Notes under the pieces: model-generated
Database searches by the model: none
What the model saw: the letters and a program-made list of their open reading frames with translations, nothing else
What the model was told of the DNA's origin: nothing
Made by a program: the position numbers and the translations under genes
Source of the DNA: Pedobacter suwonensis
GTDB taxonomy: Bacteria; Bacteroidota; Bacteroidia; Sphingobacteriales; Sphingobacteriaceae
Assembly (NCBI RefSeq): GCF_900111825.1
Contig: NZ_FOJM01000005.1
Location: 124,001 to 188,000 of the forward strand
Length of the DNA stretch: 64,000 nucleotides
Reading direction: 5' to 3'
In this document: positions 28,920 through 39,496 of the stretch, one piece after another
Layout of the letters: each line of letters starts with the position of its first letter
How positions within the stretch are numbered: position 1 is the stretch's first letter

Positions 28920-29366
28920 ATGCTATCCAAAAAGACAAAATATGCCATAAAAGCGCTTGTGGCGTTGGGCAAAAATTTAGATAAACCACCCATGCAGATT
29001 TCGAAAATTGCAGAGGAGGAGCATATCCCTAAAAAGTTTTTGGAGCAGATTCTGCTCGATTTGCGTAACGCAGGCTTTCTATATAGTAAAAAAGGTGCCG
29101 GAGGCGGTTATAGCCTCAACAAAAAACCTGAAGAAATCTTTTTGGTACATGTAATGCGTGTAACCGATGGACCGATCGCCATGGTTCCCTGTGCGAGTTT
29201 AAACTTTTACCACAAATGTGATGAGTGTGTAGATGAGAAAACTTGTGGAATCAGGAGTGCTTTTATTGATGTTAGAGATGCTACGCTCAAGGTTTTAACC
29301 GAAACCAGCATTGCCGACGTAATTGGCCGCGAGGATAACCTAAAAATCGGTATCGTTAATTTATAG
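28920..29366 (+). CDS. Rrf2-family transcriptional regulator
   Basis: A 148-residue Rrf2 protein. The winged helix-turn-helix is at ~1-70 (YAIKALVALGKN, then ISKIAEEEHIPKKFLEQILLDLRNAGFLYSKKGAGGGYSL). The C-terminal part holds four cysteines, Cys near 98 then C-x2-C-x4-C (HKCDECVDEKTCGI), so it could bind an Fe-S cluster or sense cysteine, as IscR or CymR relatives do; neither is proven. It lies upstream of the sulfate-assimilation operon on the same strand and is the leading candidate for its regulator. A perfect 15-bp-stem hairpin follows its stop. Confidence 0.9.
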   Translation: MLSKKTKYAIKALVALGKNLDKPPMQISKIAEEEHIPKKFLEQILLDLRNAGFLYSKKGAGGGYSLNKKPEEIFLVHVMRVTDGPIAMVPCASLNFYHKCDECVDEKTCGIRSAFIDVRDATLKVLTETSIADVIGREDNLKIGIVNL

Positions 29367-29576: not shown

Positions 29577-29614
29577 AATAAATTACTACTATTCCTATAT
29601 ACTTTATATATTTG
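29577..29614 (+). promoter_or_regulatory. sulfite reductase promoter, 38-bp conserved box (site A)
   Basis: The 38 bp here match 38625-38662 (site B, before the second cobA) at 35 of 38 positions and end in the -7 box TATATTTG (29607-29614). The upstream half (aattactact, then attcctata) sits where a regulator or -33 contacts would lie, so it may be both promoter and operator. The Rrf2 protein encoded just upstream is the natural candidate to bind. Confidence 0.7.
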
Positions 29615-29633
29615 GCATATAAATTTCAGTTTT

Positions 29634-29687
29634 ATGCCTGAAAAGTTAACTGCTGTACAGATGATGTGCTGTTGCAAAACGCAATAA
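29634..29687 (+). CDS. 17-aa Cys-Cys-Cys leader peptide, putative
   Basis: An ATG-to-TAA frame of 17 codons (MPEKLTAVQMMCCCKTQ) starts about 20 bp after the -7 box of site A and ends 37 bp before a terminator-like hairpin. Three consecutive Cys codons (TGC TGT TGC, 29667-29675) in the leader of a sulfur-assimilation operon fit ribosome-mediated attenuation that reads charged tRNA-Cys. Poly-Cys leader ORFs regulating sulfur genes are known in mycobacteria; I know of none for this family, and I cannot confirm translation here. Confidence 0.55.
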   Translation: MPEKLTAVQMMCCCKTQ

Positions 29688-29723
29688 TTGGAACCTACAG
29701 ATCACTTTTAGTATAAAACATGG

Positions 29724-29753
29724 AATGCTTCCCGGTGAAAGGGAGGCATTTTT
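29724..29753 (+). terminator. terminator-like hairpin in the sulfite reductase leader
   Basis: The stem is AATGCTTCCC (29724-29733) against GGGAGGCATT (29741-29750), ten pairs with one G-U, followed by five T. It lies between the Cys leader ORF and the sulfite reductase start (29774). An intrinsic terminator here makes sense as an attenuator. A competing short hairpin (GGAA-TGC-TTCC, 29722-29732) overlaps the left arm. I found no convincing antiterminator by eye. Confidence 0.6.
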
Positions 29754-29773
29754 AGAATTAGCTAACAACACAT

Positions 29774-31864
29774 ATGCAAAGTTTCAGAACAGAACTCGAA
29801 AATCCGATTGTCGAGCAGGACATTATCGATTTGGAGAATAAGATTAAAGCTTTCAGGGATGGAACCATTCACGACGAAAAGTTTAGAAGCCTGCGTTTGG
29901 CCCGTGGTGTTTACGGACAAAGGCAACCGGGTGTGCAGATGGTGCGTATTAAGTTGCCGTTTGGCAAGGTAACTTTTAAACAGTTATTGCGTATTGCCGA
30001 TATTGCCGATGAGTACGGAAGTGGTAACCTGCACTTAACTACCCGTCAGGATATCCAGATCCACTATGTAAGTTTAGACCGCACACCAGAACTTTGGGCA
30101 AAGCTCGAACAGGATGATATTACCCTTCGCGAAGCCTGCGGAAATACGGTGCGCAATGTAACCGCTTCTCCAAATGCTGGAATAGATGCAGAAGAGCCTT
30201 TTGATGTTTCACCTTATGCTCAGGCAGTATTTGCCTACTTTTTACGTAATCCCATCTGTCAGGAAATGGGCCGTAAGATTAAAATTTCTTTTTCATCCAG
30301 TGATAGGGACACCGCATTCAGCTACATTCACGATTTAGGTTTTATTCCTAAAATAAATGAAAAAGGCGAACGTGGCTTCAAGGTTTTATTTGCCGGTGGT
30401 TTAGGAGCACAACCTTTTCTGGCCAATGCCGTTCACGAATTTTTACCTGAAGATCAGTTAATCCCTTTTACTGAGTCTGTTCTTCGCGTTTTTGACCGTT
30501 ATGGCGAGCGTAACAATCGCAATAAAGCACGCTTAAAATATCTTGTTCAAAAACTGGGTCTGGAAGAGGTTTTGCGTTTGGTTGCTGAAGAACGCACCGC
30601 CAACAAAGTAAAAACCTTTAAAATTGATGTTAACGCTGTTCAACAACCACTCTTGCCTTTAGAACAAGAATACCCTTCGGTAGAGATACTGAATGAAGCC
30701 CATTATAAACACTGGTTAGCTACCAATGTAATTGAACAAAAGCAAGCAGGGTTTTATGGTGTTTATGTAAAAGTTCAGGTAGGAGATATCAAAACAGATA
30801 AAGCAAGGGCGTTTGTTGATGCCATCAGGTTATATGTGGCTGATGAAATCAGGATTACCCAAAACCAGGGCTTATTGTTGAAATTTGTACGGAAGGAAGC
30901 TTTGCCTTCTCTATACACCGCTTTAAATAAAATTGGTTTTACGACAGCCGGTTTTGATAGTTTGGCCGATATTACGACTTGTCCAGGTACTGATACCTGT
31001 AACCTGGGTATTTCCAACTCGATGACACTTGCTGAAGTTTTGGAAGAGGTTATTTATACCGATTTCCCCGAGTTTATTTACGAAAAAAACATCAAGATCA
31101 AAATCAGCGGCTGTATGAACTCTTGCGGTCAGCATGGTTTAGCTGAAATCGGTTTCCACGGAAGCTCGGTAAAAGCCGAAGGAAAAGTGGTTCCTGCCGT
31201 TCAGGTGATGCTTGGTGGAGGTACTGTAGGTAACGGCGTAGGCCGCGTGGCAGAACGGGTAATTAAAGTGCCCTCAAAAAGGGCAACAAGTGTTTTACAC
31301 TATATTTTAAATGATTTTAAGGCCAATAACCTGGCTGATGAAAACTTCCATCAATATTATGATCGTAAAGGTAAAGACCATTTTTATCAGTTGTTGAAGC
31401 CATTGGCCGATTTAACCAACCTTAAAACAGAGGAGTTTGTAGACTGGGGGCATGTGGAAGAATTTGTAACAGCCATTGGTGTAGGCGAGTGTGCTGGTGT
31501 AGTAATTGATCTCGTAGCTACCTTATTATTAGAGGCTGATGAAAAATTTGAATGGGCAAAGCAAAACTTAGATAAAGGTGCTTATGCAGATTCTATTTAC
31601 CATACCTACAGCACTTTTGTAAGTGCTGCAAAATCGCTGTTGTTGGATAAAGGAGTAAATAGTAGCACACAGGTTGGGGTAATTCGCGAATTTGATAGCC
31701 ACTATGTAGAAACCGGCGAATTTAATTTGCCTACCAATTTCTCAGACCTGGTTTTACAGATCAATAAAAATGAACCAACTGCCGAGTTTGCAAAGAAATA
31801 TTTTGAAGAAGCCAATCAGTTTCTAAATCAAATTAAAGAGAAAAGAGCGGTATTGGTGAAATGA
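29774..31864 (+). CDS. sulfite reductase (siroheme/4Fe-4S) with C-terminal HEPN-like domain
   Basis: A 696-residue protein with two nitrite/sulfite reductase ferredoxin-like half domains (~50-115 and ~325-390) and two siroheme/4Fe-4S domains. The cluster cysteines are Cys403 and Cys409 (TTCPGTDTCN) and Cys447 and Cys451 (GCMNSCGQHG). It reduces sulfite to sulfide with ferredoxin-type electrons. The last ~130 residues (~565-696) are extra and helical (ADSIYHTYSTFVSAAKSLLL), resembling HEPN domains; a fused HEPN-like tail is an oddity for the enzyme. A nitrite reductase is the main alternative, but the neighbours (cobA, siroheme synthase, cysH, cysDN) favour sulfite. First gene of the operon. 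Confidence 0.9.
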   Translation: MQSFRTELENPIVEQDIIDLENKIKAFRDGTIHDEKFRSLRLARGVYGQRQPGVQMVRIKLPFGKVTFKQLLRIADIADEYGSGNLHLTTRQDIQIHYVSLDRTPELWAKLEQDDITLREACGNTVRNVTASPNAGIDAEEPFDVSPYAQAVFAYFLRNPICQEMGRKIKISFSSSDRDTAFSYIHDLGFIPKINEKGERGFKVLFAGGLGAQPFLANAVHEFLPEDQLIPFTESVLRVFDRYGERNNRNKARLKYLVQKLGLEEVLRLVAEERTANKVKTFKIDVNAVQQPLLPLEQEYPSVEILNEAHYKHWLATNVIEQKQAGFYGVYVKVQVGDIKTDKARAFVDAIRLYVADEIRITQNQGLLLKFVRKEALPSLYTALNKIGFTTAGFDSLADITTCPGTDTCNLGISNSMTLAEVLEEVIYTDFPEFIYEKNIKIKISGCMNSCGQHGLAEIGFHGSSVKAEGKVVPAVQVMLGGGTVGNGVGRVAERVIKVPSKRATSVLHYILNDFKANNLADENFHQYYDRKGKDHFYQLLKPLADLTNLKTEEFVDWGHVEEFVTAIGVGECAGVVIDLVATLLLEADEKFEWAKQNLDKGAYADSIYHTYSTFVSAAKSLLLDKGVNSSTQVGVIREFDSHYVETGEFNLPTNFSDLVLQINKNEPTAEFAKKYFEEANQFLNQIKEKRAVLVK

Positions 31865-31954: not shown

Positions 31955-32725
31955 ATGGTTAATCAAAATATAGAATCAAAAATTACCCTTTTGGGGGCAG
32001 GTCCAGGCGACCCGGATTTATTAACCTTAAAAGGCGTAAAAGCATTGCAAACTGCTGATGTGGTATTGTATGATGCTTTAACCAACGAGGCATTATTAGA
32101 GCATGCTCCGGCAGCCGCCATTAAGGTATATGTAGGGAAACGTTCTGGAGAGCATTCCTACCCGCAGGATACCATCAACAAATTAATGATCGATTATGCT
32201 CTAAACTACGGTCATGTAGTGCGTTTAAAAGGTGGTGATCCATTTGTTTTTGGCAGGGGATATGAGGAATTGGACTATGCTGCATCGTATAGCATTCCGG
32301 TTAGTGTTATTCCGGGTATTTCAAGTTCGATCGGCGTACCTGGCCTACAACAGATCCCGGTTACGCACCGCGGTATGAGCGAAAGTTTTTGGGTAATCAC
32401 CGGAACGACGACTTCCGGAGAAGTATCTGCTGATATTTACCAGGCAGCACAATCAAAAGCTACGGTACTGGTACTGATGGGACTCAAAAAACTAGCTAAA
32501 ATTGTAGAGATCTTTAAAGCTGCAGGCAAGCAAAATTTACCAGCTGCAGTAGTGCAGAATGGATCTGCAGAAGATGAAAAATTGGTTATCGGCGTGGTTG
32601 AAACCATAGAAAGGTTGGTGCTACAAGAAAATATTAAAGCACCTGCATTATTAATTTTTGGAGAAGTTGTATCATTACATCCGTCATTTAAAAAATTAAT
32701 TAAACAATATGCAAGTATTGCCTAA
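31955..32725 (+). CDS. cobA: uroporphyrinogen-III C-methyltransferase (SUMT)
   Basis: A 256-residue SUMT: two SAM-dependent methylations of uroporphyrinogen III give precorrin-2, first step towards siroheme. All motifs are present: LLGAGPGDPDLLTLKG (~13-28), VRLKGGDPFVFGRGYEE (~89-105), VIPGISSSIGVP and QIPVTHRG. It overlaps the next gene by 17 bp. The 90-bp gap before it has a low-complexity gagatttgagatg spacer. The siroheme made here would serve the sulfite reductase upstream. Confidence 0.95.
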   Translation: MVNQNIESKITLLGAGPGDPDLLTLKGVKALQTADVVLYDALTNEALLEHAPAAAIKVYVGKRSGEHSYPQDTINKLMIDYALNYGHVVRLKGGDPFVFGRGYEELDYAASYSIPVSVIPGISSSIGVPGLQQIPVTHRGMSESFWVITGTTTSGEVSADIYQAAQSKATVLVLMGLKKLAKIVEIFKAAGKQNLPAAVVQNGSAEDEKLVIGVVETIERLVLQENIKAPALLIFGEVVSLHPSFKKLIKQYASIA

Positions 32726-34220
32726 CCAATCTGATAGTGCAGCGTCTTTTTCTGAAGAAGAAAAAGGTAACCAGCTTTTTCCTGTTTTTGTAAAGCTGAA
32801 CAAGCTGCGTACATTATTAATTGGTGCGGGCAATATCGGGTTGGAGAAGTTAACGGCAATTGTAAATAATAGCCACAGCGCTACCATTACCATCGTAGCA
32901 GAGCAGGTATCGCCAGAGGTTTATGCACTTGTTGCAAATTATCCGCTGATAAAAGTTAAACAAAAAACTTTTGATGTAAATGATTTAAATGATATTGATA
33001 TCGTTTTTGCTGCGACCAATAATTATATTTTAAATGACGAAATCAGAAAGGTAACGCATGAGCGTGGTTTGCTGATCAATGTGGCCGATAAGCCAGAATT
33101 ATGCGATTTTTACCTGGGGTCAATCGTTCAAAAAGGTGATTTGAAGATTGCCATTTCTACAAATGGAAAATCGCCAACCATTGCTAAACGTTTAAAACAA
33201 ATTTTAAATGAAGGTTTACCTGCAGAGCTGGATGAAACGCTGCAGAATATGAGTGCTTTGCGCCAAACGTTAAATGGCGATTTTTCTGCAAAGGTTAAAA
33301 AACTGAATAAGGTTACCCAAAGTTTAATTAATCCGAAAAAAAGCTTTGCCGAGCAGAATATCAAATGGTTAATCTGGGTAGCATCGGTTTTACTCATTGT
33401 CGCTATCGGATTTTCTCTGTGGAATACCGAGCCGGAATTCCAGCAATTTTTAATCAATATCGATCCGTTGTTTTATTGGTTTTTAGGTGCCGGATTTGTA
33501 TTCGCATTAATAGATGGTGCCATTGGGATGTCGTATGGTGTGACCACCGCATCATTCTCGCTTGCGATGGGTTTGCCTCCCGCATCCGCAAGTATGGCCA
33601 TCCATATTTCTGAGGTAATGAGTAACGGAATTGCAGGATGGATGCATTACCGGATGGGGAATGTAAACTGGAAATTATTTAAAATTTTAATCCTTCCTGC
33701 TATCATCGGAGCCGTTTTAGGCGCTTACATCCTATCTTCATTAGAACACTACAGCAGTTATGTTAAACCGGTTGTTGCAGTTTATACACTTTTTCTGGGG
33801 GCTGTTATTCTAATGAAAGCGTTTAACATCAAAAGGAAAAAAGCGGATCAGAAAATCAAAAAAATTGGTTTATTAGGTTTTGTAGGAGGTTTTATAGATG
33901 CAGCCTTTGGTGGCGGATGGGGATCGATTGTATTATCCAGTTTAATTGCAGGCGGCAGGCATCCCTTGTTTTCTTTGGGCACTGTGAAAATCAGCCGCTT
34001 TTTTATCGCCACGTTGAGTTCGCTTACCTTCTTTACCATGTTAGGTGGCAAACACTGGGAGGCCGTTGTAGGTTTAATTATCGGTAGCGCAATCGCATCG
34101 CCAATAGCCGCAAAAGTATCCAACAAAATTTCGGCAAAAACCATTATGGTTGCCGTGGGGATTATTGTGATGATCGTAAGCTTAAGGAGTGTAATCATGT
34201 TTATTTTAAAATTAATATAG
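32709..34220 (+). CDS. fusion of siroheme synthase (Met8/CysG-N) and TauE/SafE permease
   Basis: A 503-residue protein in two parts. Residues ~22-205 are a precorrin-2 dehydrogenase/sirohydrochlorin ferrochelatase: the Rossmann motif LIGAGNIGLEK (~37-47), DIVFAATNN and STNGKSPTIAKRLK follow the Met8/CysG-N pattern. A membrane helix (~215-235) links to a TauE/SafE-type (TSUP) permease of about seven further helices (~248-500, with the repeated GFVGGFIDAAFGGGWG and GIGMSYGVTT-like motifs). SafE-type proteins export sulfite or organosulfonates. The join puts siroheme completion and sulfur-anion transport on one chain. The 17-bp overlap with cobA supports coupling. Confidence 0.9.
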   Translation: MQVLPNQSDSAASFSEEEKGNQLFPVFVKLNKLRTLLIGAGNIGLEKLTAIVNNSHSATITIVAEQVSPEVYALVANYPLIKVKQKTFDVNDLNDIDIVFAATNNYILNDEIRKVTHERGLLINVADKPELCDFYLGSIVQKGDLKIAISTNGKSPTIAKRLKQILNEGLPAELDETLQNMSALRQTLNGDFSAKVKKLNKVTQSLINPKKSFAEQNIKWLIWVASVLLIVAIGFSLWNTEPEFQQFLINIDPLFYWFLGAGFVFALIDGAIGMSYGVTTASFSLAMGLPPASASMAIHISEVMSNGIAGWMHYRMGNVNWKLFKILILPAIIGAVLGAYILSSLEHYSSYVKPVVAVYTLFLGAVILMKAFNIKRKKADQKIKKIGLLGFVGGFIDAAFGGGWGSIVLSSLIAGGRHPLFSLGTVKISRFFIATLSSLTFFTMLGGKHWEAVVGLIIGSAIASPIAAKVSNKISAKTIMVAVGIIVMIVSLRSVIMFILKLI

Positions 34221-34222
34221 TG

Positions 34223-34924
34223 ATGGGGAACTTAGAGGAGATAAAAGCAACACTGGAAGGCTTAAGTACAGTAGATAAACTGAAATTTTTGGCAACTGAA
34301 TACGCCGGGCGTATTATATTTTCAACCAGTTTTGGCTGGGAAGACCAGGCAATTACCCATTTAATTTTTGCCAATAATATTCCGATCAAGGTTTTTACTT
34401 TAGAAACCGGACGTTTGTTTCCGGAAACCTATTATGTTTGGAACCGTACCTTAGAAATTTATAATAAACCCATTCATGCCTATTATCCGCAGAACGGACT
34501 CTTAGAGGATATGGTCAACACAAAAGGCCCTAACAGTTTTTACGAATCGGTAGAGAATAGAAAAGAGTGCTGTTACATCCGTAAAATCGAACCCTTAAAA
34601 AGAGCATTGAAAGGTAATGATATCTGGATAACAGGGATCAGGGCCGATCAAAGTGCCAACCGCGAGGATATGCATGATTTGGAATGGGACGAAGGAAACC
34701 AATTGATCAAATTTCACCCTATTTTTGATTGGACTTTGGATGACGTAAAAACCTACATTAAAGAAAACAATATTGTGTACAATACTTTGCATGATAAGGG
34801 TTTTCCTAGTATAGGATGCGCACCCTGTACACGAGCAGTACAGCCCGGCGAAGATTTCAGGGCCGGTAGATGGTGGTGGGAAGACCAGAGCAAAAAAGAA
34901 TGCGGTTTACATGCCGCAGGCTGA
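34223..34924 (+). CDS. cysH: phosphoadenylyl/adenylyl-sulfate reductase, APS type
   Basis: The ATG at 34223 is chosen over the adjoining GTG (34220), both just after the previous stop. The 233-residue enzyme has the CC...C-x2-C cluster ligands (ECCYIRK ~116 and GCAPC ~199-202) that mark the 4Fe-4S APS-reductase form, and the catalytic cysteine in the C-terminal KKECGLH. It reduces APS to sulfite, which explains the absence of an APS kinase (cysC) gene in the cluster. It lies between the siroheme/permease fusion and cysD. Confidence 0.94.
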   Translation: MGNLEEIKATLEGLSTVDKLKFLATEYAGRIIFSTSFGWEDQAITHLIFANNIPIKVFTLETGRLFPETYYVWNRTLEIYNKPIHAYYPQNGLLEDMVNTKGPNSFYESVENRKECCYIRKIEPLKRALKGNDIWITGIRADQSANREDMHDLEWDEGNQLIKFHPIFDWTLDDVKTYIKENNIVYNTLHDKGFPSIGCAPCTRAVQPGEDFRAGRWWWEDQSKKECGLHAAG

Positions 34925-35057: not shown

Positions 35058-35963
35058 ATGAGTACATATAATTTTGATTATTTAGATGAGCTGGAGGCCG
35101 AAGCCATTCACATCTTACGTGAAGTTGCAGGTCAGTTTGAAAAACCAGCCCTTTTGTTTTCAGGGGGGAAAGATTCGATTACTTTGGTTCGTTTGGCAGA
35201 AAAAGCTTTCCGTCCGGGTAAATTTCCTTTTCCGCTGGTACACATAGACACCGGTCATAATTTCGAAGAAACCATCACCTACCGTGATCAAATGATAGAA
35301 AGGATTGGTGAGAAACTTATTATTGGCTCTGTTCAGGAATCTATCGACCAGGGTAAAGTAGTAGAACAGACCGGTAAAAATGCCAGTAGAAATGCATTGC
35401 AAACCGTAACCTTGCTCGATACCATTGCCAAATACCAGTTCGATGCCTGTATTGGCGGTGCCCGTAGAGATGAAGAAAAAGCCAGGGCAAAGGAGCGTAT
35501 TTTCTCTGTCCGCGATGAGTTCGGACAGTGGGATCCGAAACGCCAGCGTCCCGAACTCTGGAACATTTACAACGGTAAAATCCATAAAGGCGAAAACATT
35601 CGTGTATTTCCGATCAGTAACTGGACAGAATTAGACGTCTGGAATTACATCCGCAGGGAGAAAATAGAACTTCCGAGCATTTATTTTTCGCACGAACGAG
35701 AGGTAATTACCAGGAATGGCCAGCTGATGGCCGCTTCGCCTTTTTTAAATATGGATGAGGAAGATGTGGTACAACGTAAACAGGTGCGTTTCCGTACGGT
35801 TGGCGATATGTCTTGCACCGCCGCAGTAGAATCAGACGCATTTTTGATCGACGATATTATTTCAGAAATCAGTGCCTCAAAAATTTCAGAGCGTGGTGCA
35901 CGTTTAGACGACAAGGTTTCTGAAGCCGCAATGGAAGACAGAAAAAAGGGAGGGTATTTTTAA
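35058..35963 (+). CDS. cysD: sulfate adenylyltransferase subunit 2
   Basis: The start is ATG 35058 (MSTYNFDYLDELEAEAIHILREVA); the frame is open further left to 34911 but runs through low-complexity spacer, which is not family-like. The 301-residue PP-loop protein carries SGGKDS at ~35-40 and forms APS from sulfate and ATP together with CysN. The 133-bp spacer before it includes the purine-rich then pyrimidine-rich sequence typical of this operon. Other family landmarks are GGARRDEEKARAKER and RFRTVGDM. Confidence 0.95.
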   Translation: MSTYNFDYLDELEAEAIHILREVAGQFEKPALLFSGGKDSITLVRLAEKAFRPGKFPFPLVHIDTGHNFEETITYRDQMIERIGEKLIIGSVQESIDQGKVVEQTGKNASRNALQTVTLLDTIAKYQFDACIGGARRDEEKARAKERIFSVRDEFGQWDPKRQRPELWNIYNGKIHKGENIRVFPISNWTELDVWNYIRREKIELPSIYFSHEREVITRNGQLMAASPFLNMDEEDVVQRKQVRFRTVGDMSCTAAVESDAFLIDDIISEISASKISERGARLDDKVSEAAMEDRKKGGYF

Positions 35964-36105
35964 AGGAGACGTGAGATTTTAGATGTGAGATTTGAGAATC
36001 TTGCATCTGTCTAATCTCATATTTATTATTTTTAAGGGTAGCGTGAGATCTGACAATCTTGCATCCGTCTCATATCTATTATCTCATATCTCAAATCTCA
36101 AAAAA
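35964..36105. repeat. low-complexity spacer between cysD and cysN
   Basis: 142 bp made of two related halves (gtgagat...aatcttgcatc...), each with a purine-rich arm (gagattttagatgtgagat) followed by a pyrimidine-rich arm (catctgtctaatctcat) that is its imperfect complement. It could fold into hairpins in the message. See the finding on intercistronic spacers. Confidence 0.6.
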
Positions 36106-37356
36106 ATGAACATATTAAAATTTTTCACAGCAGGCAGCGTAGATGATGGTAAAAGTACCTTAATTGGCCGTTTGTTATACGATACAGATTCTATTTTGGC
36201 TGATCAGTTAGAAGCTTTGCAGCGCTCCAACCGCAAAAATGACGATGGGACAATAGACTTAGCCATTTTAACTGATGGTTTAAGGGCAGAACGTGAGCAG
36301 GGTATTACCATTGATGTAGCCTATAAATATTTTCAGACAGAAAAGCGTAAATTTATCATTGCAGATACCCCGGGCCACATTCAGTATACCAGAAATATGG
36401 TTACCGGAGCTTCTACTGCTAACTTAGCCATCATCTTAATTGATGCCCGTAACGGTGTGGTAGAGCAGACTATCCGTCATTCGTATATCGTTTCTTTACT
36501 GGGCATTAAACATGTGGTGGTCTGCATCAACAAGATGGATATGGTGGATTATAGTGAAACCGTGTATAGTGCCATTGTTGAAAAATACAAAGTTTTGGCG
36601 CAGCGATTAAAGTTGGTTGATGTAACCTATATCCCCGTGAGCGCATTAAAAGGCGATAATGTAGTACAAACATCAGAAAATATGCAATGGTATGAAGGTG
36701 AAAGTTTGTTGCATTTTCTGGAAAAGGTAGATACCGACCACTTAGATCAATCTCAACTGGCGCGGATGCCAGTACAATGGGTAGTTCGTCCGCAAACAGC
36801 AGAGCTGCATGATTACCGGGGTTATGCTGGGCGTGTGTTAAGCGGAACTTTCAAATTAAATGATAAAGTTACGGTCCTTCCTTCAGGAGCAAGTTCTGTT
36901 GTAGAGAAGATTGAGTTTTTTGATGAAGAACTTGATGCTGCACACGCTGGTCAATCGGTTATCATTCACTTAAAAGACGATGTCGACATTAGTCGTGGTG
37001 ATACCATTGTAAATGCATCGGCTTTGCCACAGGAAACAAAACTGATTGAAGCAGATCTTTGCTGGATGGATACGCGTGCCCTTGATACTTCCATCATGTA
37101 TAATATTCAACATAATAGCAAGGTTACCAAATGTAAAATCAGCGAAATTCTACATAAAGTAGATATCAATACTTTAGAAAAGCATGCTGCAGAAGAATTT
37201 AAACTGAATGATATTGGCCGTGTAATTGTGAAAACCGCTGATGCGCTGGCTTTTGATTTATATGATGATAACCGGGCAAATGGTTCTGCTATTTTAGTTG
37301 ATACCCGGACCAATTTAACCGTTGGCGCACTCATGTTTAGGGCGGCAGTGGAGTAG
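36106..37356 (+). CDS. cysN: sulfate adenylyltransferase subunit 1 (GTPase)
   Basis: The start is ATG 36106 (MNILKFFTAGSVDDGKST); the frame to 35992 reads through a spacer of gagatatgaga-type repeats. The 416-residue EF-Tu-like GTPase has G1 GSVDDGKST (~10-18), DTPGH (87-91) and NKMD (~143-146), followed by the two beta-barrel domains. GTP hydrolysis drives APS synthesis by CysD. There is no fused APS kinase domain, in line with an APS-reductase route. It is the last gene of the sulfate operon. Confidence 0.95.
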   Translation: MNILKFFTAGSVDDGKSTLIGRLLYDTDSILADQLEALQRSNRKNDDGTIDLAILTDGLRAEREQGITIDVAYKYFQTEKRKFIIADTPGHIQYTRNMVTGASTANLAIILIDARNGVVEQTIRHSYIVSLLGIKHVVVCINKMDMVDYSETVYSAIVEKYKVLAQRLKLVDVTYIPVSALKGDNVVQTSENMQWYEGESLLHFLEKVDTDHLDQSQLARMPVQWVVRPQTAELHDYRGYAGRVLSGTFKLNDKVTVLPSGASSVVEKIEFFDEELDAAHAGQSVIIHLKDDVDISRGDTIVNASALPQETKLIEADLCWMDTRALDTSIMYNIQHNSKVTKCKISEILHKVDINTLEKHAAEEFKLNDIGRVIVKTADALAFDLYDDNRANGSAILVDTRTNLTVGALMFRAAVE

Positions 37357-38662: not shown

Positions 38663-38701
38663 TATTGTTAACGAATGGATAATGGACATAAACTTTCAGT
38701 T

Positions 38702-39496
38702 ATGATTTTGAATAAAGTAGAAAAAGCGAACATTGAACCAAAAATTACATTAATAGGTGCTGGTCCTGGTGACCCGGATTTATTTAGTTTAAAAGGGGTT
38801 AAGGCATTAAAAACAGCTGATGTTGTTTTGTATGATGCAAATGTAAACGAAGCTTTATTGTGTCATGCACCAGATGGTATCCCTAAAGTTTATGTAGGCA
38901 AACGTTCTGATGATGAATCATTTTCTCAGGACGCAGTAAACAGGCTCATCATTGACTATGCTTTAAATTATGGTCATGTTGTACGTTTAAAAAGCGGCGA
39001 CCCGTTTTTCTTTGCAAAAGGGTATGAAGAAATAGATGCAGCAGAATCTTATAGTATCCCTACTGAAATCATTCCTGGGATTTCGAGTGCCACAGGTGTG
39101 CCAAGTTTGCAAAAAATCCCTATGATTTATAAGGACATGAGCGAAAGTTTTTGGGCAGTAACTGGAACCAATTCTAAAGGTGAAATTTCGGAGGATTTGT
39201 ACATAGCTGCAAAAACGAAAGCTACGATAGTTGTTTTAAACGGCATTGAAAAAGTAAAAGAGATTGCAGCCATTTTTCAGGCAGAAAGTAAAAATCTGTT
39301 GCCAGTTGCCGTTATCCAAAATGGTTCCACACCTGACGAAAAGATTGTGGTAGGTATAGTTGAAACCATTGCTGAGATTGTGGAAGATAAAAGAATAACG
39401 GCCCCGGCTCTATTGGTTTTTGGCGATGTGGTTTCATTACACCCTCAATTTCAACCCATCCGCGATTTCTACGAAATTATCGCTGAAGAGTACTAG
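38702..39496 (+). CDS. diverged SUMT-like methyltransferase, second copy
   Basis: The start is ATG 38702 (MILNKVEKANIEPK), which aligns with the leader ATG of site A; ATG 38675 is an alternative only ~13 bp after the -7 box. The 264-residue protein is clearly homologous to the cobA product, and its GAGPGDPD motif is kept. Key conserved positions have changed: GGDPFVFGRG has become SGDPFFFAKG, and THRG has become IYKD. So the SAM pocket is probably kept, but uroporphyrinogen methylation is doubtful. It carries the same promoter as the sulfur operon and may be a diverged or decaying copy, or a new activity. Confidence 0.85.
   Translation: MILNKVEKANIEPKITLIGAGPGDPDLFSLKGVKALKTADVVLYDANVNEALLCHAPDGIPKVYVGKRSDDESFSQDAVNRLIIDYALNYGHVVRLKSGDPFFFAKGYEEIDAAESYSIPTEIIPGISSATGVPSLQKIPMIYKDMSESFWAVTGTNSKGEISEDLYIAAKTKATIVVLNGIEKVKEIAAIFQAESKNLLPVAVIQNGSTPDEKIVVGIVETIAEIVEDKRITAPALLVFGDVVSLHPQFQPIRDFYEIIAEEY

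Follow-up and report, generated by a model that had tools for sequence, protein, structure and literature searches.

The leader analysed here belongs to Pedobacter suwonensis and lies in a stretch of 64,000 nucleotides, hereafter the window (contig NZ_FOJM01000005.1, positions 124,001 to 188,000 of the forward strand), whose own coordinates we use throughout (table 1). It is followed by an operon that starts with a ferredoxin-type sulfite reductase gene. Directly upstream lies a gene for an Rrf2-family transcriptional regulator, whose nearest NCBIfam equivalog is CymR (NF047409), with a score of 87 bits that is below the cut-off of 195. The genes downstream of the leader form a sulfate-assimilation operon with siroheme synthesis, a pathway that fits the amino acid proposed to be sensed. 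The sulfite reductase shares up to 97% identity with its counterparts in named Pedobacter species. It also has a weak C-terminal match to a HEPN domain (PF05168, 24.5 bits, residues 583-650). A second uroporphyrinogen-III C-methyltransferase gene is found near the operon (38675-39496), besides the one at 31955-32725.

Table 1. Features of the sulfite reductase leader and of the surrounding genes, in coordinates of the window.
Feature	Position	Strand	Evidence or remark
Rrf2-family transcriptional regulator	28920-29366	+	Pfam PF02082, 5.5e-36
Conserved promoter/operator stretch, ACTACTATTCCTATATACTTTATATATTTG	29585-29614	+	Nearly invariant in almost all Sphingobacteriaceae loci, with or without leader ORF
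-7 box, TATATTTG	29607-29614	+	Seen in sequence; Bacteroidota consensus TAnnTTTG
Ancestral position of the leader start codon	29619-29621	+	ATG in most relatives, ATA in window
Leader ORF, MPEKLTAVQMMCCCKTQ (ATG...TAA)	29634-29687	+	Start apparently relocated
Three consecutive Cys codons, TGC TGT TGC	29667-29675	+	Proposed stall site; run kept in relatives
Position of the antiterminator 5' strand	29688-29695	+	AGGAGC in close relatives, UGGAAC in window
Intrinsic terminator, AATGCTTCCC-GGTGAAA-GGGAGGCATT	29724-29753	+	Hairpin of ten pairs, with T run
Terminator 5' arm	29724-29733	+	
Terminator loop	29734-29740	+	
Terminator 3' arm	29741-29750	+	
Terminator T run	29749-29753	+	
Ferredoxin-type sulfite reductase	29774-31864	+	ATG at 29774; PF01077 9.2e-48, PF03460 2.9e-37
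Uroporphyrinogen-III C-methyltransferase (siroheme)	31955-32725	+	NF004790, TIGR01469 above cut-off
Siroheme synthase N-terminal domain fused to TauE sulfite exporter (single protein)	32709-34220	+	TIGR01470, PF01925
Adenylylsulfate/PAPS reductase (CysH)	34220-34924	+	TIGR02055, NF002537 above cut-off
Sulfate adenylyltransferase CysD	35058-35963	+	TIGR02039 above cut-off
Sulfate adenylyltransferase CysN	35992-37356	+	TIGR02034 above cut-off

A preliminary description of the locus had noted the box, the 17-codon ORF, its Cys-Cys-Cys run, the hairpin and the sulfite reductase ATG, and all of these held at the positions of table 1. The consensus of the Bacteroidota box and its centring at -7 follow PMC7366714. 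With a folding energy of -17.3 kcal/mol (z = -4.4), the hairpin is more stable than any of 200 shuffles, and the leader as a whole has a folding z of -3.7. When the leader was shuffled 20,000 times with its dinucleotides preserved, a Cys-Cys-Cys run in an ATG frame arose 48 times, and three short Cys-Cys-Cys ORFs are present in the window when both strands are counted (128 kb). Judged alone, the ORF is thus only mildly improbable, and we therefore built the case on the comparison with relatives. A search of the same genome for TTTG...Cys3 sites returned 212 matches, apparently mostly repeats within coding sequences. The Rfam 15 covariance models had no match in this leader or in those of ten relatives. 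A scan for sigma-70 promoters revealed no excess; this promoter type is the wrong one for Bacteroidota. The conserved stretch that ends with the box is inferred to be, probably, an Rrf2-type operator for the product of the adjacent regulator gene.

We fetched 110 sulfite reductase loci of Sphingobacteriaceae, which gave 98 distinct leaders. Of these, 60 had both a terminator and a short ORF containing a Cys pair, and 22 had neither; 15 had only the terminator and a single one only the ORF (Fisher exact test, p = 4e-11, uncorrected for phylogeny and inflated by kinship). When any Cys in the ORF was counted, the numbers were 70 with both, 18 with neither, five with only the ORF and five with only the terminator. 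Around 70 non-redundant loci of Pedobacter and Mucilaginibacter have a Cys ORF followed by an intrinsic terminator approximately 40-60 nt further on. The element is absent from many Sphingobacteriaceae, where leaders are mostly short (roughly 35 to 110 nt). The preliminary description proposed that relatives lacking the Cys codons or the hairpin would refute its reading of the leader as a cysteine attenuator. Some such relatives exist, but usually both parts are missing together; elsewhere Cys codons, ORF and terminator are kept together. This is what one functional unit that is now and then lost would show, and none of the refuting outcomes named in that description was observed.

The position of the element is as regular as its composition. 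We scanned both strands of 1.27 Mb of Sphingobacteriaceae loci for modules defined as three Cys within six codons of a short ORF, followed by a terminator. This gave 29 matches, of which 26 precede the sulfite reductase gene at one position, with 38-59 nt from the last Cys codon to the hairpin; the spacing is 112-128 nt in the other three. On either side of the Cys run the leader peptides differ (MNFNFIPNKLIAMQIMCCCKTQ, MKTNFTHKTTLMYCCMRSDRPWL, MNEQLAHTTGTMCICCCYNNSKTRLL), which would be expected if the codons alone matter. The start codon lies exactly 4 nt past the -7 box in 52 of the 71 loci with a leader ORF (19 nt in the window). Given the centring of the box, this gap would place the AUG at the 5' end of the transcript or a few bases from it. 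Leaderless translation of the ORF is thus the likely state in most Pedobacter, although this is inferred and no start site has been mapped. One Pedobacter subgroup (L031, L033, L035, L037, L052, L054, L062, L103, L108 and L109) keeps the ORF and the terminator, but the ORF has just one Cys codon or two, close to its end (for example MHCMYR, MRCMYR, HCMCG). Either a single codon suffices there or sensing has weakened, and we regard both as no more than possibilities.

Attenuation by the leader requires a structure that excludes the terminator, one that the preliminary description had sought in vain. We found it just after the Cys codons. By eye, the segment that follows them is complementary to the 5' arm of the terminator in each lineage, even though both differ between lineages. 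Shuffling the duplex at single loci gave a weak average (z about -1) because shuffled purine-rich segments pair too. Since a composition-independent test was wanted, we instead paired every post-Cys segment with its own terminator 5' half and with all the others. In 49 modules from outside Sphingobacteriaceae, the cognate energy averaged -15.8 kcal/mol against -11.2 for cross pairs (z = -10.8, p < 1e-4). The z was -4.2 in 38 diverse representative leaders of Sphingobacteriaceae, and -12.8 in all 87 modules together (-13.6 against -9.9 kcal/mol). The signal is confined to the first 35 nt past the last Cys codon (z = -12.0), and the control segment, taken more than 35 nt after it, showed no pairing signal (z = +1.2). 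We consider this test, with its control segment, the strongest single result of the analysis. The covariation is visible in Mucilaginibacter, where GGYUG occurs with CAGCC and GGCUA with UAGCC (10 G-C, 5 A-U and 5 other). The pairing takes place 0-35 nt past the last Cys codon and mostly at the stop codon or close to it, so that by geometry alone this segment would be free while the ribosome occupies the Cys codons and covered once it has reached the stop. In several relatives, folding with a ribosome positioned at the Cys codons forms the antiterminator before the 3' arm has been made. The finished RNA usually favours the terminator, from which we infer that the order of synthesis must matter, as in known attenuators. 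Sequence comparison thus shows that the family has an antiterminator that excludes the terminator and coevolves with its 5' arm.

The copy in the window departs from this pattern. In most relatives the leader ORF begins 15 nt upstream of the window's ATG, at the codon that is ATA in the window, and at 29634, where the window has ATG, relatives have an in-frame ATA (TTTTATACC). Its leader start codon thus seems, as far as can be inferred from sequence alone, to have been moved rather than lost, which suggests selection to keep translation, albeit from one case only. The antiterminator is reduced to GGAA (29690-29693) against UUCC (29729-29732), i.e. four clean pairs, and the terminator arm reads GCUUCCC where neighbours have GCUUCUC. 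Apart from this pairing, folding gave another, weak structure at -6.3 kcal/mol and none that is clearly an antiterminator. The T run counts five instead of six or more, but the hairpin is as strong as in relatives. In the row of the window copy, the cognate pairing residual comes 4th out of 87, though through a different segment. The change of ATG to ATA, the shifted start and the weak antiterminator make the present function of this copy less certain. It probably still responds to cysteine, without RNA or expression data to confirm it. The leader of P. terrae has decayed: its start position also reads ATA, no new ATG has arisen and the Cys run is gone. The common ATA might have made P. terrae the sister of the window's species, but the sulfite reductase tree does not support this. 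The ATA (29619-29621; L006, L085) is shared although that tree does not make the two sisters, which points to parallel change or to exchange of the leader region.

The element is not restricted to Sphingobacteriaceae. We surveyed 395 Bacteroidota genomes, 59 of them with a clear sulfite reductase; families are referred to by code (f10, f13, etc.). It was found in single genomes of f10, f13 and f19 and in most loci of f27. These four families have more pronounced forms of it, and in f27 the Cys run reaches nine consecutive codons (L221, MENSQSAYYMMCCCCCCCCCSSTSKWNHCEEKRMI; L230). Among the sulfite reductase loci examined, it was not seen in the Flavobacteriaceae-like f26, in f15, in f30 or in a second genus of Sphingobacteriaceae. 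Strict detection outside Sphingobacteriaceae gave 49 modules in 30 loci. In 19 of these 30, from three families, the sulfite reductase gene is preceded by two complete modules in tandem, each a poly-Cys ORF with its terminator (L205, L206, L207, L210, L211, L216, L218-L222, L224, L226, L228, L230-L232, L243 and L244). The locus L220, for example, has MYSLQHTTALKNTHTCVCCCCCNMNP with a terminator, then MNIQSTTFCCCCCCCMIYRIPCEVD with a terminator, then the gene. Modules were also detected, separately, in the f27 leaders L200 and L202. No leader module was present at 40 further poly-TGY sites in seven f27 genomes. One module, with the poly-Cys leader MIKNLNLHNVCCCCCLSETLSRERRM and a terminator (L263:1470-1637), precedes a gene for an ATP-grasp protein resembling RimK and glutathione synthetase; it is possible that this gene is a second member of the regulon, a hint of a thiol-related ligase.

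Taken together, these data make it very likely that the sulfate-assimilation operon is controlled by ribosome-mediated transcription attenuation in this leader, with cysteinyl-tRNA as the signal sensed, as the preliminary description had proposed; support for its reading is comparative, without RNA data, and extends well beyond the window's genome. In the proposed mechanism, RNA polymerase would start just past the -7 box and a ribosome would translate the ORF with the Cys run. When cysteine is plentiful, the ribosome would run to the stop codon and cover the adjoining downstream segment, and the terminator would form. When Cys-tRNA is scarce, it would stall on the Cys codons and leave free the segment 0-35 nt downstream, which would pair with the emerging 5' arm of the terminator and let the polymerase continue into the operon. 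The Rrf2 regulator would probably add control of initiation. Comparison shows that the Cys ORF and the terminator are conserved at a constant spacing, that the antiterminator coevolves and that the pathway matches. Stalling, termination, the response to cysteine and the transcription start sites are inferred, in the absence of transcript, term-seq or ribosome-profiling data. Full confidence is further precluded by the degeneracy of the window copy (ancestral start lost, weak antiterminator), the decay in P. terrae, the subgroup with few Cys codons and the many Sphingobacteriaceae without the element. A bolder reading, towards which we lean only slightly, is that of a widespread cysteine attenuator of Bacteroidota, doubled in several families as a multiplicative Cys-tRNA gate, with a leaderless ORF in Pedobacter that parallels mycobacteria independently.

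The alternative that survives best concerns the window copy alone, which could be a non-functional remnant of a true attenuator family, with a constitutive partial terminator or none left. This is possible. It is favoured by the change to ATA at 29619, by the weakened antiterminator and by the further decay in P. terrae. On the other hand, the Cys run is intact, the frame is open with a new in-frame ATG, the terminator has kept its strength and the cognate residual is near the top of its row, even if through another segment. Control might instead be translational, if stalling in the leader or reinitiation altered how accessible the start of sulfite reductase is, with the hairpin as a translational block. 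Mycobacterial poly-Cys leaders have been reported as translational attenuators (PMC13236596, PMC9031893), and the Pedobacter ORF is likewise near-leaderless. We nevertheless regard this as very unlikely, given that across lineages the stems are rich in GC and run into T tracts, that the hairpins are located upstream of the sulfite reductase start and not over it, and that the coevolving partner is the terminator 5' arm. A functional Cys-rich peptide (binding metals or thiols), with a hairpin that merely ends the transcript, is all but excluded: up to nine Cys in a row would be unusual for a normal protein, but between lineages there is no evident peptide similarity outside the run, the RNA after it coevolves with the terminator and almost all the ORFs found stand before one and the same operon. 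Chance, with an accidental Cys-Cys-Cys ORF beside a hairpin that simply terminates the upstream Rrf2 gene, accords with the modest statistics of the window but can be practically discarded, as position, spacing and pairing are kept across several families and the operon promoter is upstream of the terminator.

The preferred reading, transcription attenuation, places the element beside the trp, his and leu attenuators, with which it shares a leader ORF rich in codons of the end product, an intrinsic terminator, an exclusive antiterminator and control of the matching pathway. It differs from them in sensing cysteine, in its occurrence in Bacteroidota, in being near-leaderless in Pedobacter and in the tandem modules of many relatives. 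The poly-Cys leaderless ORFs of mycobacteria (Canestrari 2020, cited in PMC13236596 and PMC9031893; leaders in PMC4633059 and PMC1262725) also have runs of Cys codons before sulfur and cysteine genes, and Pedobacter is apparently leaderless too. However, the cys leaders of mycobacteria have no conserved terminator hairpins (PMC1262725) and their control is described as translational attenuation (PMC13236596, PMC9031893), unlike the Bacteroidota element with its conserved terminator and coevolving antiterminator. We presume convergence. In Rhodobacterales, the uORFC-8-2 motif upstream of cysS has been predicted to attenuate transcription, also with Cys codons and an intrinsic terminator (PMC8632094). 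It belongs to another phylum, however, precedes a cysteinyl-tRNA synthetase gene, has two Cys codons and is not known to occur in tandem. Leader-peptide attenuators have been suggested before amino-acid operons in Flavobacterium psychrophilum, also a member of Bacteroidota (PMC9723704). The main text of that study names no cysteine attenuator, and all the Flavobacteriaceae-like (f26) sulfite reductase loci we examined lack the element. The preliminary description knew of no such attenuator in Bacteroidota, and we found no earlier report of one, nor of tandem amino-acid attenuators, in the open-access literature searched (supplements excluded).

If this interpretation is correct, leader-peptide attenuation in Bacteroidota would extend to the sensing of cysteine. 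The results suggest that poly-Cys leaders arose more than once, for transcriptional control in Bacteroidota and for translational control in mycobacteria. The loci would also provide a natural series of single and double attenuators in which to ask why cells stack two of them, and the mechanism would explain how sulfate assimilation is tuned in a large group of environmental bacteria.
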